Source: Galbibacter kalidii
GTDB taxonomy: Bacteria; Bacteroidota; Bacteroidia; Flavobacteriales; Flavobacteriaceae
Length of the DNA: 64,000 nt
Direction: 5' to 3'
Assembly: GCF_026241135.1 (NCBI RefSeq)
Contig: NZ_JAPFGA010000006.1
Location: 2,369 to 66,368 of the forward strand
A program made the translations under genes and the position numbers. The notes beneath the pieces are model-generated. The model saw only the letters and a list, made by a program, of their open reading frames with translations, searched no databases and had not been told where the DNA came from. This document shows, piece after piece, positions 4,736 through 57,362 of this stretch (position 1 is its first letter; each line of letters begins with the position of its first letter).

Positions 4736-6613
4736 ATGAAACAGAGACAAAGCGTAAAAACAGTATTGCTATGCAGTATATTTTTAACCCTGAGTATTGC
4801 TTTAAATGCGCAAAAGTATAAAATAAAACAAGCTGATAAAAAGTTTGAGAACTTAGAGTATATAGAAGCCGTAAAGATATATGAATCGGTTGCCAATAAG
4901 GGGTATGAAGATCCTGATTTGTACAGAAAAATAGGCGATGCCTATTATTTTAATGCAGATTATGCACAAGCGGCACAGTGGTATGATAAACTTTTTACCA
5001 TGTCGCCCGGGCAAACACTGGAACAGAAGTTTAGATATGGACAAAGCTTAAAGAGTATTGGTAAAGATACGCAGGCCAATGCCCTATTGACCGAGTATTA
5101 TGCCAGTAAAGGCATTAATTATAGCGACTTAGATAAGAAGATCGCTGATTATAGCGATAAGTACACCATTAAAAAAGAAGATTTTAATACTGAAAATTCA
5201 GATTATCCGGCATTTATGGATAGTGAGAAGTTGTATTTGGCAACAGCCGCTTCAAATGGCCTTGAAAACAATTGGTCTGATGAAAGAGCTTCAGATATTT
5301 ATGTTGTAAAGGGCGGCGACAAACAAAACTTGGCAGGCGAGATCAATACCAAATATAACGAGGGCTCCTTGGTTATTACCAAAGATGGTAATACCATGTA
5401 TTTTACCAGAAATGATTATAACAATAAAAAAAGAGGTAAAGATGCAGACAATACCACTAAACTAAAATTGTACAGAGCCAAAAAAGCAGACGGCAACTGG
5501 GGTGACGTAGAAGAACTTCCCTTTAACAATAGTAGCTACTCAGTAGGGCATCCTGCTTTAAGCAAGGACGAAAAGATGCTGTACTTTGTTAGTGATATGC
5601 CTGGCGGAAAAGGGGGGACTGATATTTATAGTGTAAGGGTTTCTAATGATGGAGGGTTTGATTCGCCTACAAACGTGCAGGCCATAAATACACCGGGCAA
5701 TGAAATGTTTCCTTTTATGGCCAGTGACGGTACGTTGTATTTTTCTTCTAACGGTTATCCAAATATAGGAGGATTGGACGTGTATTCAACTGCCATCAAT
5801 AATGGTGGTTATGGAGAGGTAACAAATATAGGAGCCCCTGTTAACAGCCGTGGTGATGATTTTGCTTTTTTTATAGATGGTGAAGAAAAAGGGTATTTTG
5901 CTTCCAATAGAGAAAACAGAAATGACGATGTTTATTCATTTGAAACGAACCCTAACTTTAAAGAACCATGCGAATTAGACCTAGAAGGTTTGGTTAAGGA
6001 TAAAGATACGGGAGACTTATTGGCTGACGCTGTTATTTCTTTGTTGGACAGTAAAAATGAAATTGTTAATAGATTAAAGGGAGGTAGCGACGGAGCTTTT
6101 TCTTTAGAAGAGATAAATTGTAACGATGTACAAAGGGTACGTATTGAAAGAAGAGAGTATCAAACTGCTGAAGTTGATTTACCGGAGCCAACAGATAGAA
6201 AAGTGTATAAAGATTTTCTGTTAGAAAGAAACGAAATACCATTAGAGACAGGAACAGATATTGCCTTATTACTGAAACCTATTTATTTTGATCTGGATAA
6301 AAGCTATATAAGGCCTGATGCAGAAATTGAACTTCAAAAGGTTGTAGCTATTATGAAACAGCATCCAACTATTAAAGTAAATGTTGGATCTCATACAGAC
6401 AGTAGAGCAAACGACAATTATAATATGCAACTTTCTCAGCGCAGGGCAGATGCCACGGTAGATTATTTAGTATCTCAAGGTATTGACAGGTCAAGACTCT
6501 CTGGTACGGGCTATGGAGAAACACAGTTGGTTAACCTTTGTTACAATGGAGCGGCATGTAGTGAAAGTGCCCACCAACAAAACAGGAGAAGTGAATTCAT
6601 AGTAATCAAGTAA
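4736..6613 (+). CDS. OmpA family protein with TPR and WD40-like (PD40) repeats, PorE-like
   Basis: A 625-residue envelope protein. It has a signal peptide (to about residue 25, SIALNAQ), a TPR-like helical segment (about 30-110, with FENLEYIEAVKIYESVANKG), PD40/beta-propeller repeats (about 160-400, with YNEGSLVITKDGNTMYFTRN and GHPALSKDEKMLYFVSDMPG), a carboxypeptidase-regulatory-like Ig fold (about 425-500) and a C-terminal OmpA peptidoglycan-binding domain (about 515-625). The OmpA domain shows YFDLDKSYIRPDA, GSHTDSRAN and LSQRRADATVDYL. This architecture occurs beside PorP/SprF genes and includes the T9SS component PorE. It probably anchors the SprF partner to peptidoglycan. Four cysteines near the C-terminus may form disulfides. 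Confidence 0.88.
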   Translation: MKQRQSVKTVLLCSIFLTLSIALNAQKYKIKQADKKFENLEYIEAVKIYESVANKGYEDPDLYRKIGDAYYFNADYAQAAQWYDKLFTMSPGQTLEQKFRYGQSLKSIGKDTQANALLTEYYASKGINYSDLDKKIADYSDKYTIKKEDFNTENSDYPAFMDSEKLYLATAASNGLENNWSDERASDIYVVKGGDKQNLAGEINTKYNEGSLVITKDGNTMYFTRNDYNNKKRGKDADNTTKLKLYRAKKADGNWGDVEELPFNNSSYSVGHPALSKDEKMLYFVSDMPGGKGGTDIYSVRVSNDGGFDSPTNVQAINTPGNEMFPFMASDGTLYFSSNGYPNIGGLDVYSTAINNGGYGEVTNIGAPVNSRGDDFAFFIDGEEKGYFASNRENRNDDVYSFETNPNFKEPCELDLEGLVKDKDTGDLLADAVISLLDSKNEIVNRLKGGSDGAFSLEEINCNDVQRVRIERREYQTAEVDLPEPTDRKVYKDFLLERNEIPLETGTDIALLLKPIYFDLDKSYIRPDAEIELQKVVAIMKQHPTIKVNVGSHTDSRANDNYNMQLSQRRADATVDYLVSQGIDRSRLSGTGYGETQLVNLCYNGAACSESAHQQNRRSEFIVIK

Positions 6614-22985: not shown

Positions 22986-23067
22986 TGCGGCTGAAGGGAG
23001 TCGAACCCCCACGCCTCTCGGCACTTGATCCTAAGTCAAGCATGTCTACCAATTCCATCACAGCCGC
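22986..23067 (-). tRNA. tRNA-Leu (anticodon UAG)
   Basis: On the minus strand the sequence folds as an 82-nt class II tRNA. The acceptor arms GCGGCTG and CAGCCGC pair with discriminator A. The anticodon stem CTTGA/TCAAG surrounds loop CTTAGGA, giving anticodon UAG (reads CUA). The variable arm is short (TGCCGAGAGGCG) and the T arm GGGGGTTCGACTCCC is standard. CCA is not encoded. The 3' end faces the accessory region at 19-22.9 kb, the usual site used by island integrases. Confidence 0.93.
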
Positions 23068-23260
23068 ATTTTTAACAATATTTTAAGAACTTAAATTAGG
23101 TTTATTCCTAAGTCAAGCATGTCTACCAATTCCATCACAGCCGCATTTTTAACAATATTTTAAGAACTTAAATTAGGTTTATTCCTAAGTCTGACGTGTC
23201 TACCAATTCCACCACACCCGCATTATTTTATTTAAAGAACTATCAATACTTACTTAGACC
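23030..23260 (-). repeat. 77-bp tandem repeat carrying tRNA-Leu 5' halves
   Basis: The unit starts at 23,030 (inside the real tRNA), 23,107 and 23,184, exactly 77 bp apart. Each unit holds the tRNA-Leu 5' half, from the anticodon loop to the 5' end, plus about 39 bp of AT-rich flank. The 5' halves are at 23,044-23,067 (intact gene), 23,121-23,144 (identical) and 23,198-23,221 (diverged to a GCGGGTG acceptor). No matching 3' halves exist, so the extra copies cannot fold as tRNAs. Confidence 0.85.
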
Positions 23261-47886: not shown

Positions 47887-49830
47887 ATGAAAAAAACAAT
47901 GATGAAAATTTCAGTATTATGCACAATTCTATGTGCACTTATCATCACAGGCTGTAGCAGTGATGACACACCAGATGGTCCGGAGCCACCGGAACCAACA
48001 GACGATACCCTTGAAGGGAACCTTACTGAGGATACTACCTTAGATTCAAGTATAGAATATACCTTGACGGGAAGTTTTTTTGTTACCGAAGGAGCTACTT
48101 TGACTATTCCAGCTGGCACTAAAATTGTTTCTGAATCAGGAACAGATAAGTACATAACTATCGACAAAGGGTCTAAAATAGATGTACAAGGTACGGAAAG
48201 TAACCCTGTATTAATGACATCCAAGAATGAAACTCCAGGTGACTGGGGAGGATTGGTTATTCTTGGTGACGCTACAACTACTGCTGGTGCGAACTCATCT
48301 GCTGAAGTTGGTGGATTTATTTATGGTGGGAATAACGATGCTGATGACTCAGGTTCAATCAACTATCTGATCATTAACTATGCTGGTGCTCAGATTAACG
48401 CAGAATCACAATACAATGGTCTTACTTTATATGCTGTTGGTTCTGGAACATCTATCAGCAATGTGGCTATGTTGAACGGGACTGACGATGGTGTTGAATT
48501 CTTTGGAGGTACTGTATCAGCTACCAATCTGTATTTAGAAAACAATGAAGATGATGCAGTTGACTGGACAGAAGGTTGGAGTGGTACTGTGGATAACACT
48601 TATGTGTTGCACACTATTGAAGGCTTCTCTACAGCTATTGAAGCGGATAAAGTAAACAACAATCCTACATTCAATAACTTTACAGCTGTTTCAGCAACCG
48701 GAGGTACTGCTCTTCAGTTCAAAAAAGAATCCGGAGCTACTATTAATGGATTATCGCTTACCGGATATACTACATCTATAGATATGGCAGATGGTGGTCC
48801 TCTTGCCAATGTGGTTATAGAAGGCGAAACGGCTGATGAATTTAAAAGTTATACTACAGAACCAACCGTAGATGTTAGTACATTTGCTTGGGTAAACTCT
48901 AATGCAACTATAAGTGATGAAGTGCTTCAAGGATATGTTGATGCTGAAGTAACACTAGATGCTTCTGTAGCATACGAATTAAACTCTTCTTATATTGTAA
49001 GAGATGGAGGTAAATTAACTATACCTGCCGGTACTAAAATAACAGCTGCTAATGGCGGAACTTCTGTTTACATTGCTGTATTAAAAGGAGGCGAAATAGA
49101 TATTCAAGGAACTCCTGAAAACCCTGTAGTGATAGGATCTGTTGATGGTAACCCTGGCGATTGGGGTGGATTAACCATCTGCGGAAACGCTACAACAACT
49201 GCCGGTGTAGACGCTGTAGCAGAAGTTGGTGGTTTCATTTACGGTGGAACTGATGATGCCGATAGCTCAGGAAGTATCACTAACCTTGTAATAGTTGGAA
49301 CTGGAGCTCAAATTAATTCTGAGTCTCAATATAATGGAGTTTCTTTATATGCTGTAGGTTCAGGAACAACAATTGAAAACATTGCGGTTAAAAATGGTGC
49401 TGATGACGGAGTTGAATTCTTCGGAGGAACTGTTTCTGCAACAAACCTTTATTTGGAAAATAATGAAGACGATGCTGTAGACTGGACTGAAGGATGGAAT
49501 GGAACTGTAACCAATGTTTATGTTTCTCATAGCATTGAAGGGTTCTCAACAGCAGTAGAAGCTGATGGAACTAACGGTAACCCTACCTTGGTAAACTTTA
49601 CTGCAGTAGCCTCAACAGCTGGTACTGGATTACAGTTTAAAAAGGAATCTGGAGCAACTTTTGAAAACGCACACCTTTCAGGTTATACAACCAATGTTGA
49701 TTTTCCTAATGGAGGTGCTCCAAGTAATGTAATAGTTGATGGTACACCTTTAACAACTGCTGAAGACGATGTATTCAATGGTACTGCCTTGGATATCTCA
49801 GGATGGTCTTGGATTGAAGCTTCTTTGTAA
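47887..49830 (+). CDS. Beta-helix-type lipoprotein with two duplicated halves
   Basis: A 647-residue lipoprotein (lipobox IITGC, Cys23) with an acidic Pro/Glu/Asp linker. It consists of two similar halves (about 40-335 and 340-645). Each has a start such as LTIPAGTKI, then NPGDWGGL, TTTAGA or TTTAGV, EVGGFIYGG, and the phrase GVEFFGGTVSATNLYLENNE followed by DDAVDWTEGW. This pattern suggests a right-handed parallel beta helix exposed on the surface. It follows the TonB receptor by 52 bp and probably binds its ligand. The halves are diverged at base level, so the duplication is not recent. A strong terminator follows. Confidence 0.85.
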   Translation: MKKTMMKISVLCTILCALIITGCSSDDTPDGPEPPEPTDDTLEGNLTEDTTLDSSIEYTLTGSFFVTEGATLTIPAGTKIVSESGTDKYITIDKGSKIDVQGTESNPVLMTSKNETPGDWGGLVILGDATTTAGANSSAEVGGFIYGGNNDADDSGSINYLIINYAGAQINAESQYNGLTLYAVGSGTSISNVAMLNGTDDGVEFFGGTVSATNLYLENNEDDAVDWTEGWSGTVDNTYVLHTIEGFSTAIEADKVNNNPTFNNFTAVSATGGTALQFKKESGATINGLSLTGYTTSIDMADGGPLANVVIEGETADEFKSYTTEPTVDVSTFAWVNSNATISDEVLQGYVDAEVTLDASVAYELNSSYIVRDGGKLTIPAGTKITAANGGTSVYIAVLKGGEIDIQGTPENPVVIGSVDGNPGDWGGLTICGNATTTAGVDAVAEVGGFIYGGTDDADSSGSITNLVIVGTGAQINSESQYNGVSLYAVGSGTTIENIAVKNGADDGVEFFGGTVSATNLYLENNEDDAVDWTEGWNGTVTNVYVSHSIEGFSTAVEADGTNGNPTLVNFTAVASTAGTGLQFKKESGATFENAHLSGYTTNVDFPNGGAPSNVIVDGTPLTTAEDDVFNGTALDISGWSWIEASL

Positions 49831-49870
49831 GCAGAGAGAAAGAAGAATAAAATAATATTCTATAAACCCA

Positions 49871-49897
49871 AACCCCGGCAATGCGCCGGGGTTTTTT
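49871..49897 (+). terminator. Intrinsic terminator of the receptor/lipoprotein operon
   Basis: CCCCGGC-aatgc... pairs with GCCGGGG, flanked by AA and TTTTTT, 40 bp after the stop. A strong GC stem and T-run make this a clear terminator. Confidence 0.92.
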
Positions 49898-50038
49898 GTT
49901 TTATTTTCGCATATAAGACACGAAAAACTGTCCCCTTGAGGATAAACAGAGCGACAAAATATATTTTGTAGTGAAGTTTGCGAGCGTAGCTCTTTAGGGG
50001 TGTTCACGCACTATTTTTAGGTGCTTTCTCCCTGTTTT

Positions 50039-50183
50039 TACGTTATTTGATGAAGTTTTTACGTTCCGAACGTGTTAGAATACGTTGTCTAACGTAAAAT
50101 TTTACATTGCACAACGTATTTTTTTACGTTACTTAACGTATAATTTTACGTTCAGGACGTATCCGTTTACGTTCTACAACGTA
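50039..50183. repeat. Helically phased array of TACGTT/AACGTA palindromes
   Basis: TACGTT starts at 50,039, 50,060, 50,081, 50,103 (as TACATT), 50,125, 50,147 and 50,168, i.e. spacings 21, 21, 22, 22, 22 and 21. From the third box on each is followed by a spacer and AACGTA: spacers GTCT, GCAC, ACTT, about CAG(G) and CTAC; the second has CCG then AACGTG. The first box lacks its partner. T-rich runs separate the units. The 21-22 bp period equals two helical turns, so all sites would face the same side. It lies between a terminator and a convergent hypothetical gene. Confidence 0.9.
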
Positions 50184-50247
50184 TATTTTTGGGTCATTAA
50201 CCTAAACGGACCACCTTGACAACGTATTAGGGATACCTTTTTGACTA

Positions 50248-50410
50248 AGAACTCATTTAAACTTTCTCCAATTGGCTACAAAATGATCTTTTTACCCCAT
50301 ATTTTGTCTTTTTATTGCTCCATAGCTATGGCTATGCAGCGCAAAAAAGCCTTCATCTGGAGCAAAAATCTCTATTTTTCGCTTCAATTAAGAAAGCTTA
50401 AACGAGTTCT
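50248..50410. repeat. 163-bp MITE-like element
   Basis: The left end AGAACTCATTTAAACTTTCT then CCAATT (from 50,248) matches the right end inverted (50,385-50,410, reading inward AGAACTCGTTTAAGCTTTCT then TAATTG). The interior has no transposase. Isolated copies of the same end lie at 57,289-57,314 and 57,315-57,341. It is probably a non-autonomous element. Confidence 0.75.
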
Positions 50411-50504
50411 AATTTAATAATGAATGTAAAGGAAAGAGGAGGAGTTTTGAAGAAAAAGAATGAGGGGAATAAAGAAAGAATGAGGGAATATATATAATTA
50501 CAAC

Positions 50505-50981
50505 CTATTCAATGGTTTTGTCTCCATTTTTACGGTTGCCACGTGGGAAAAATTGCCTGAGTTCGGCCACTTTTTCGGTATAGCCATTTTCTCCGGCACC
50601 TTTTTTATACTGAGCATAATTATAGTCTATTAAAGCATCGCGGAAATTGTCATAATCGTGCATCATTTTTGTACTTTCCATTTGGAATGCCAAACTCTGC
50701 AAACGCTCGGTACGGCTTTCTAAAAATAACCGGGCATTATAATCTTTTTTAAAATCCTCCCAATCTACTTCGGGAGCACATAAGGTTGGTGTTGTTTGCA
50801 CATAACCGTTCACTTTGTTTACAAAAAGCTTGTTCTGTTCGTTGATAGAACCGTATTTTATACGTTCCTGTTCTGTTAAAGCAGATAGCTTTCCTTTTAA
50901 TAGATCTTCAAGTTTTGTAATCAGTTCGTCCACCTGACTTTTGTCTTTTTCGGTCAGTGATGTTTGGATAACGTTTTTCAT
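50505..50981 (-). CDS. Hypothetical helical protein
   Basis: A 158-residue protein without a signal peptide or membrane segment. It is charged and mostly helical: SLTEKDKSQVDELITKLEDL near the start, then YNARLFLESRTERLQSLAFQ and FRDALIDYNYAQYKKGAGEN. The positively charged end reads FFPRGNRKNGDKTIE. I recognise no family, but proteins of this kind occur in Bacteroidetes. Its start is about 85 bp from the divergent secreted protein gene. The phased palindrome array lies beyond its stop. Confidence 0.6.
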   Translation of the reverse strand: MKNVIQTSLTEKDKSQVDELITKLEDLLKGKLSALTEQERIKYGSINEQNKLFVNKVNGYVQTTPTLCAPEVDWEDFKKDYNARLFLESRTERLQSLAFQMESTKMMHDYDNFRDALIDYNYAQYKKGAGENGYTEKVAELRQFFPRGNRKNGDKTIE

Positions 50982-51105
50982 TGTTTATAAGAATTAAATT
51001 AATAATAGGAGTAAATATATTAAATAACGGTTTGTTAACATTAAATAAATATAAAAAATTCTATTCATGGGTAATTTTATCTCTCAAATCTTAAAAAACT
51101 TTACC

Positions 51106-52614
51106 ATGAAAAAAATTACTACTTTTATTTTAATGATGCTGTGTGTCATCAATGTTACAGCACAGGTGACCCAAAAATACCATAGGGTAAAAAAGGTTTA
51201 TACAAATATGTCTTCAAGACATGAGTTTTGTTTAAATGGAACAACATCTACCCTGAGTCGCAAAGTGAATATTTCTATAGAAGATAAGCTTCCAATAGGT
51301 ACAACTTTTTATTATGACTTTGGAGCAGATAGTGGACTTTGGGCAGTTACATATTCTAGAGACTCTAGGAACGATGATTGGGACTACAATATAAGTGGAA
51401 GTAGTATAACAATCCAAGATATTTGTGTCAATACCGAAAAATATCACAGGTTTTATTTCTTAGGTGAAACATCTTCAGAAGCTCAAAATGAATATTGTAA
51501 TGTGGCATCTAGTAGAAGAGATGCTAAAGTTGATATATTGACACCCGAACCCCTAACACCAGACAGGGTCTATTATGTAAATACCAGCTTAAATAGTTAC
51601 CCACCCGGATATTATTATCTCAAATCTTCATATTATGCCGATTCTGCAGATGAAGATGAAAATTTGTCTGGTACTGGTTCGATATCTCCAGTATCATTCC
51701 CGGATTCGGATAATGATGGGGTTATTGATGTATGTGATAGTAATGATAAATACCATGTAATTAAATATAGAGGGCGAACACAACAAGAAGCAGAGGCTTC
51801 AAAATGTAATAATGATGCTGAAAATTCTGTTGGTGTCAATATTGATATTGATCAAGCATTAACAATAGGAAAAATATACTATATTGATAGAGGTACAGGT
51901 ATCGGTCATAGATATTATGAAGTAACAAACACAAGTAATAATCCTAATTCATCTGCTGAAACAAATATAGGTACATCCAACATAGGAAGTTCATTTTTTG
52001 CAAATTGTTCATCGGAGTTAGCCGATATTGAAATTACTAACCTAAGGATTATACGTAATGGAAGTACTGAAATATTTAACTCTAATACTAATAGTACACC
52101 TACTTTAAGTTATAATAATAGTTATGAATTTAGATATACCTTGAAAAATAGTGGAGGAGAGGCTGTTGATATTAATTTGTCTAAGTTTTTTTCATACAAT
52201 AGTTCGTTTGATCAATTCAATGACTATTTCATAGATGATGATGAGATAAGCTCCATTTCTCCCGGAGGTCAGGCTACACTTAAAACATATGTTACTCCGG
52301 GTAATGGTTATATAGGTAGTGCGAGCGTTACGAACAATCAAGGGTATTATTTTATTTTTTCAGTAGTATATGAAAACAGCGATAATAGTTTGTCTGAATA
52401 TGAAAATCGTGTTGGGTTTATTTATTCTACAAATACAGCCTCTAAACCACCATTAAAACCTTATCAAGTTCAAACATTTGATTTTTCAGGCAACCGAGTC
52501 TTATCAGAAGAAGTGAACAGTAAAGAAGAGGAAGAACAAGTAATACAAAGTTTGCCCAAAGGGAATTATATCATCAAAGCAAATAATAAAACCTATAAAA
52601 TTTCAAAGGACTAA
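51106..52614 (+). CDS. Secreted protein with three internal repeats and a T9SS type A-like tail
   Basis: The best start is the methionine of MKKITTFILMMLCVINVTAQ (51,106), giving 502 residues with a signal peptide; an upstream ATG at 51,067 would add 13. The body has three copies of a 60-80-residue unit: KYHRVKKVYT, KYHRFYFLGETSSEAQNEYC and KYHVIKYRGRTQQEAEASKC, each followed by an acidic stretch and a YY(D/V) strand. Between them a calcium-type PDSDNDGVIDVCDSND is seen. A CARDB-like domain follows (about 305-430). The end, VQTFDFSGNRVLSEEVNSKE and IIKANNKTYKISKD, resembles a short type A sorting domain. Surface location is likely; the repeat has no name that I know. Confidence 0.72.
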   Translation: MKKITTFILMMLCVINVTAQVTQKYHRVKKVYTNMSSRHEFCLNGTTSTLSRKVNISIEDKLPIGTTFYYDFGADSGLWAVTYSRDSRNDDWDYNISGSSITIQDICVNTEKYHRFYFLGETSSEAQNEYCNVASSRRDAKVDILTPEPLTPDRVYYVNTSLNSYPPGYYYLKSSYYADSADEDENLSGTGSISPVSFPDSDNDGVIDVCDSNDKYHVIKYRGRTQQEAEASKCNNDAENSVGVNIDIDQALTIGKIYYIDRGTGIGHRYYEVTNTSNNPNSSAETNIGTSNIGSSFFANCSSELADIEITNLRIIRNGSTEIFNSNTNSTPTLSYNNSYEFRYTLKNSGGEAVDINLSKFFSYNSSFDQFNDYFIDDDEISSISPGGQATLKTYVTPGNGYIGSASVTNNQGYYFIFSVVYENSDNSLSEYENRVGFIYSTNTASKPPLKPYQVQTFDFSGNRVLSEEVNSKEEEEQVIQSLPKGNYIIKANNKTYKISKD

Positions 52615-57288: not shown

Positions 57289-57341
57289 AATTAAGAAAAG
57301 TTTAAATGAGTTCTAATTAAAAAAGTTTAAATTTGAGTTCT
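57289..57341. repeat. Two tandem ends of the MITE-like element
   Basis: AATTAAGAAAAGTTTAAATG then AGTTCT (57,289-57,314), followed by AATTAAAAAAGTTTAAATTT then GAGTTCT (57,315-57,341). Both match the right end of the element at 50,248-50,410. The 5' half of the element is missing here. Confidence 0.65.
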
Positions 57342-57362
57342 TAAAAAAAGGAAGGGTAGAAA

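Follow-up and report, generated by a model that had tools for sequence, protein, structure and literature searches.

A gene family for small helical proteins in Bacteroidota and the phased 21-22 bp DNA arrays that usually follow it

Organization of the locus

The 64,000-nucleotide stretch of Galbibacter kalidii DNA analysed here (the window; contig NZ_JAPFGA010000006.1, positions 2,369 to 66,368) carries an array of short inverted half-sites repeating at 21-22 bp between two convergent open reading frames (ORFs), 47887-49830 (+) and 50505-50981 (−). A reading made earlier from the letters of this DNA (the sequence-only reading) had described seven TACGTT boxes outside any gene and behind a terminator. 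This description was borne out: TACGTT occurs at 50039, 50060, 50081, 50125, 50147 and 50168 and TACATT at 50103, 21-22 bp apart, and the features of the locus are arranged as follows.

49870-49894, + strand: intrinsic terminator of the convergent gene 47887-49830
49930-50004, no strand: repetitive extragenic palindromic (REP)-like dispersed repeat on the far side of the array, with 9 other copies in the genome (E 5.2e-12 or better)
50014-50245 (core 50039-50183), no strand: phased palindrome array of 21-22 bp units, with degenerate half-sites on both sides of the core; outer limits set by eye
50248-50410, no strand: element resembling a miniature inverted-repeat transposable element (MITE), between gene and array, with imperfect terminal inverted repeats AGAACTCATTTAAACTTTCT found by eye
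50505-50981, − strand: gene of a 158-residue all-helical protein of the array-associated family, its 3' end facing the array (mean predicted local distance difference test score, pLDDT, of the model 88.9)

The further statement that most boxes are followed by four variable nucleotides and AACGTA is fair but loose. The exact right arm follows four of the seven boxes (50081, 50103, 50125 and 50168), while that of box 50060 (three-nucleotide spacer, AACGTG) and that of box 50147 (GACGTA) are inexact and box 50039 has none. The six TACGTT words within 145 bp exceed the maximum of three seen in first-order Markov windows (2 of 200). The strict word TACGTTNNNNAACGTA, with two mismatches allowed, is unremarkable in the window (5 matches vs 2.45 expected); it is the clustering and register of the array, rather than the count of this word, that is striking. 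A 43-bp super-period is present in this array and in related ones. No Rfam model reached its gathering score in 48000-52000. An insertion sequence (IS) end was not identified at the array, though no IS library was searched; the MITE-like element begins at 50248.

The neighbouring gene belongs to a family of small helical proteins

Homologues of the 158-residue protein are encoded in 5 of 21 nearby genomes and, by single-sequence search, in 3 of 249 genomes of the family Flavobacteriaceae. Profile A2 detected the protein family in 43 of 395 Flavobacteriales genomes and profile A3 in 26 of 395 Bacteroidota genomes. The libraries searched gave no family assignment for the window protein and no convincing match for other members. 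Weak matches that were not accepted include DndG (2 of 15 members, best E 4e-4) and others in PADLOC, PHROG entries for some members (down to 0.0023), the NCBIfam phosphopentomutase (1 of 38, E 1e-4) and MobP3 (6 of 38, best 0.0022) families, and LTXXQ and DUF6376 (0.008). Among the members scanned, the Pfam matches contained no Y1_Tnp, and library and structure searches revealed no Rep, ParB or ParR domain. The family has no sequence relative in the PDB (best E 0.033), and Foldseek returned nothing better than E 0.64 in the PDB and 0.31 among viral models. The structures predicted for the window protein and a distant member contain the same five helices, one of 55 residues (pLDDT 88.9 and 89.7; predicted template modelling scores 0.70 and 0.69, respectively). 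The linked protein is acidic.

Phased DNA follows the gene across Bacteroidota

Linkage between gene and array was quantified in 96 members, that is, the listed family matches with a locus sequence and a placeable stop. A 20.5-23 bp periodicity (T ≥ 5) was present downstream of 70 of the 96 copies vs 2 of 95 upstream flanks; other period ranges reached this threshold downstream in 6 and 9 of 96. In 75 of 96 copies the downstream periodicity lay above all 100 shuffles. In-register units with z ≥ 9 were found downstream in 47 of 96 and upstream in 2 of 95, and among 164 comparison ORF ends from 21 other loci six reached this value, namely one family gene and five ends that flank known arrays. 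The main periodicity, register and period-class tests were confined to about 20-23.5 bp, and separate scans left lags 6-109 all open; in these, lags 21, 42, 43 and 22 led in near and distant members alike. Autocorrelation was used because a dyad-Fourier test missed obvious arrays (L068, z −1.4).

The gene-array linkage across Bacteroidota is solid. Beyond what the sequence-only reading had contained, these data reveal the arrays to be the regular neighbour of one protein family across the phylum, and the gene family and the DNA element, neither assigned in the libraries searched, belong together. The pairing, in which the gene of a small protein is usually followed by an array repeating at 21-22 bp, seems to be undescribed in Bacteroidota; no description was found in the literature searched, whose coverage takes in few subscription papers and preprints, so that an earlier one is possible.

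Left out of the 96 were L126 and L128 (contig ends inside the gene), L157, L158, L183 and both genes of the tandem pair L167/L186, as well as broken or partial matches (G000:C70:4202, G386:C23 and C52, two in G548:C13, G608, G467, G576, G495:C1:1053542 and G566:C103). When tested later, L157, L158 and the second gene of L167/L186 passed too (T 9.1, 10.0 and 30.5). In genome G207, each of the two gene copies (L126 and L128) is cut off by a contig end, as though assembly had failed on the DNA beyond. Four close family members (L150, L152, L153 and L155) have apparent downstream tandem repeats of ~250 bp (blastn) and no strong 21-bp signal. A broken copy of the gene, with one internal TAG, lies at 1834-2160 of the window; by eye, no periodic array follows it.

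Array anatomy

The usual order is stop codon, often an intrinsic terminator, and then at least ten units of 21, 21.5 or 22 bp. Of the 96 copies, 59 have a terminator no more than 130 nt past the stop, compared with 6 when each sequence was shuffled once; L059 and L131 instead have a terminator-like hairpin beyond the array (by eye). The 47 strong arrays have periods of 21 (35 arrays), 22 (6 arrays) and 43 (6 arrays), with a median identity between units of 0.51 over 10 in-register units, and 28 of them show dyad symmetry at p ≤ 0.01. In the conservation spectrum of the unit, only 2 cycles (z 5.9) and 4 cycles (z 3.6) per unit stand out, with no power at 1, 3, 5 or 6. Power at two cycles per unit means that conservation peaks once per helical turn. 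Thus, the helical phasing and the selection on paired half-sites that the sequence-only reading had proposed are supported well beyond the window locus by periodicity, dyad symmetry and once-per-turn conservation.

In the strand test, carried out on the DNA downstream of 54 family genes, G-T and A-C hairpin mismatches numbered 45 and 49 (shuffles 23.6 and 23.0), and this equality indicates that no RNA strand is favoured. A coding repeat (21 bp being seven codons) was rejected: 10 of 96 arrays are fully open, the median longest frame is 64 vs 56 in shuffled DNA, and arrays of 21.5 bp cannot keep frame.

Letters turn over while spacing is kept

The letters of the arrays differ between members, even inside one genome. 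In G685, three paralogues have arrays that are mutually unlike by eye, all of 21 bp. TACGTT as a fixed operator word was therefore rejected, as array words differ among relatives and paralogues. A host factor common to all arrays is likewise hard to reconcile with letters that differ between paralogues of one genome. By contrast with the letters, spacing is kept, and such arrays would be liable to escape searches that rely on sequence similarity alone.

The period (21, 21.5 or 22 bp) tends to follow the protein clade. With classes cut at 21.25 and 21.75, where some labels are close calls, the period label changes 14 times on the protein tree vs a mean of 24 and a minimum of 20 in 200 shuffles. 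The class differs in 8 of the 15 genomes with at least two labelled arrays. Between a member and its nearest protein in another genome, periods differ on average by 0.13 bp (73 cases), and between members of one genome by 0.23 (36 pairs). Rank correlation between period and tree distance is nil when all pairs are taken (0.02) and is 0.24 within genomes (p 0.16). The nil overall value implies that the period signal is confined to near relatives, as expected for a trait inherited with the gene.

Arrays in the host, the genus and the family

The host genome contains 35 places matching TACGTTNNNNAACGTA with at most one mismatch vs 17 for the reversed control, and arrays of the same design occur elsewhere in it, some ten by eye. 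Of 60 genomes, 6 contain tandem motif pairs (two mismatches), the host among them and all from its genus, and none of the 53 genomes outside the genus does; there was one control match (G005). Model R1, 43 nt long and made from 49 units (45 of 59 collected units, three from the window and one from contig C48), matches 50057-50207 of the window (C70:52425-52575). The sequence-only reading had allowed for an array absent from all close relatives; this does not hold, as R1 finds arrays in six of the seven genomes of the genus, with 8-46 unit matches per array-bearing genome.

An exact-pattern scan of genome contigs returned seven stretches, among them arrays in Galbibacter mesophilus (NZ_JAMQVC010000002.1) and in one metagenome-assembled genome of the Flavobacteriaceae; the remaining five held no array by eye. 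In a 199-genome sample of the family, the 43-nt model matched four genomes: the host, G085, G161 and G204. The matches in G161 and G204 were rejected as arrays as their sites look coding, which leaves G085 as the only real array outside the genus in this sample. It has other letters (ATAGGT..ACCTAT) and adjoins a homologue of the 50505-50981 gene, on the gene's 5' side.

Some arrays stand apart from the gene family. Several host arrays adjoin other genes, such as those of SAICAR synthetase (purC) and aldose epimerase. An orphan array in G561 follows the ThrE exporter gene and its terminator and is 74% identical to that genome's gene-linked array, while one in G386, at 68% identity, has no family gene in the 3.2 kb examined. 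In G003 and G004, arrays are present but no family gene was detected.

The T-type host arrays (L031 ~5865-5895; right ends in L066, L008 and L032) finish in AAAGAAAAAGGTTATATTTGAAAGG-like DNA, within which TATATTTG, pointing away from the array, is presumably a Bacteroidota-type −7 box. The REP-like repeat type found at 49930-50004 (GTCCCCTTGAGG...CTCTTTAGGGGTG) directly abuts two further arrays, at C48 and C103.

Comparison with known systems

Iteron arrays and plasmid centromeres (P1 incA, mini-F incC, parC) are built of helix-phased 17-22 bp units beside the gene of a binding protein, sometimes downstream of it. The locus shares with them helically phased tandem sites that adjoin one gene. 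Unlike them, several of the arrays lie on chromosome-size contigs, the half-sites are often inverted, and the linked protein has no Rep, ParB or ParR domain. In type III toxin-antitoxin systems (ToxIN), ToxI repeats of ~36 nt lie upstream of the toxin gene. The likeness there is a small protein gene beside tandem repeats, with several non-matching pairs per genome; the differences are that our repeats lie downstream, often after a terminator, show no strand preference and accompany an all-helical protein. CRISPR and TIGR-Tas arrays were dismissed since spacers of 4 nt are too short for guides.

Phage and plasmid origins were likewise rejected. The window stretch had no match in phage records, nor one G-type word in IMG/VR, and none of the 105 pattern matches of profile A2 in IMG/VR was confirmed; tblastn with one family member found no match among PLSDB plasmids.

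The locus is also like bacterial interspersed mosaic elements (BIMEs) and REPs with their REP-associated tyrosine transposases (RAYTs), in that its small intergenic palindromic repeats alternate in orientation, are linked to a single gene family, which they track, and also occur as dispersed copies without the gene. However, the linked gene shows no transposase domain, the 21-22 bp register is strict, the letters are free and the host has some ten arrays. Nor is the gene flanked by repeats on both sides, the array being downstream in 70 of 96 and upstream in 2 of 95 (in G085 it is upstream). In short, the resemblance of the locus to iteron or centromere arrays, or to BIMEs with a RAYT, stops short of features that define either group, as neither a Rep/Par nor a Y1 domain was found.

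The nearest published Bacteroidota array that we met is BrickBuilt, a minisatellite MITE of Porphyromonas gingivalis. It is an intergenic array of 23-nt units, compared with 21-22 bp here, with 19 copies in one strain; its terminal repeats resemble IS5-family ISPg elements, and the portion of the report available to us names no linked gene family (PMC4596501).

Discussion

On balance we consider it about an even chance that these loci are two-part systems, in which the gene of a helical protein of ~160 residues and, often, a terminator are followed by an array of about ten or more units that serves as the DNA partner of the protein. The array is probably a multivalent, one-faced binding platform of double-stranded DNA, and probably one for the linked protein. 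A dimer with two-fold symmetry would recognize each 21-22 bp unit as double-stranded DNA, and about ten such dimers, aligned on one face of the helix, would build a co-operative nucleoprotein cluster. The dimer may be the linked protein itself, each paralogue reading its own array. Indeed, a row of dimers on a single face would select this combination of two-turn spacing, two-fold symmetry, once-per-turn conservation and no preference for a strand, and a linked, co-inherited gene makes its product the natural candidate for the dimer. Two points weigh against this interpretation. The protein is acidic, and the spread or persistence of arrays in places that lack the gene makes a constant partnership between gene product and array less certain. 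Orphan arrays may be dispersed or left-behind platforms still working in trans, or relics.

A competing view sees the arrays as REP/BIME-like dispersed 3'-end repeats, a non-autonomous repeat copied to operon ends as sites for gyrase, nucleoid-associated proteins or termination, with the 160-residue gene associated as RAYTs are with REPs. The gene-less arrays beside unrelated genes in the host, G561 and G386 fit this view, and REPs and RAYTs are reported to co-evolve (PMC2817692). Yet the linked protein gave no Y1 transposase match, and array-bearing genomes of the genus hold 8-46 unit matches, with some ten arrays in the host by eye, not hundreds. We therefore regard this explanation as unlikely, though it retains appreciable weight. 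An RNA series of hairpins, which the sequence-only reading had listed among its candidates, appears improbable. Here, the array would template a hairpin chain (a structured 3' untranslated region, a sponge for small RNAs or a type III antitoxin-like RNA) bound by the protein. Full 7-bp hairpins are abundant, numbering 90 downstream of 54 genes (terminators included) vs 9.2 in shuffles and 18 upstream (41-gene subset), L059 and L131 have their terminator-like hairpin after the array, and the protein is small and acidic. But no strand is preferred, 59 of 96 copies have a terminator in the first 130 nt after the stop, and hairpins do not require strict register.

We consider very improbable a neutral minisatellite, that is, a tandem duplication hotspot located by chance after the gene. 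Near-perfect tandem copies in some arrays (L215 and L219) and the gene-less G003 array of near-identical units would suit it; against it stand recurrence after one family phylum-wide and hardly after other ORFs, a register maintained at 0.51 unit identity, the lead of lags close to two helical turns in close and remote members when lags were open, and once-per-turn conservation.

If the arrays are indeed platforms for a bound protein, the operator, partition or origin-like array and decoy that the sequence-only reading had named are all possible roles. The platform may act in locus maintenance or segregation, in auto-control by titration or in 3'-end chromosome architecture; by analogy with plasmid iterons or centromeres, maintenance or titration would be our first guess. 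More tentatively, and with the odds somewhat against it, we suggest a chromosomal two-part system, in which a helical protein of new fold would assemble on its own phased array. The two-turns-per-dimer geometry would be kept while the sequence code changed, so that one genome would hold several systems blind to each other, as with centromere and incompatibility systems. If the protein reads its own array, these loci would form a natural set of orthogonal protein-DNA systems. They would then allow rapid co-evolution of a binding protein with its satellite-like site to be tested directly, a problem mostly studied in eukaryotic centromeres and plasmid incompatibility.

Other repeats

The MITE-like element at 50248-50410 was not listed by an inverted-repeat scan that used exact 9-nt seeds. 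A similar element lies elsewhere in the host genome (G000:C23 ~98650-98815), and repeats like its terminal inverted repeats also occur at 57289-57350 of the window. Long tandem repeats are found in the window at 1-377 and 835-1034, with units of 198 bp and 105 bp inside the ORF at 13-1770, and at 23029-23224, with units of 77 bp.
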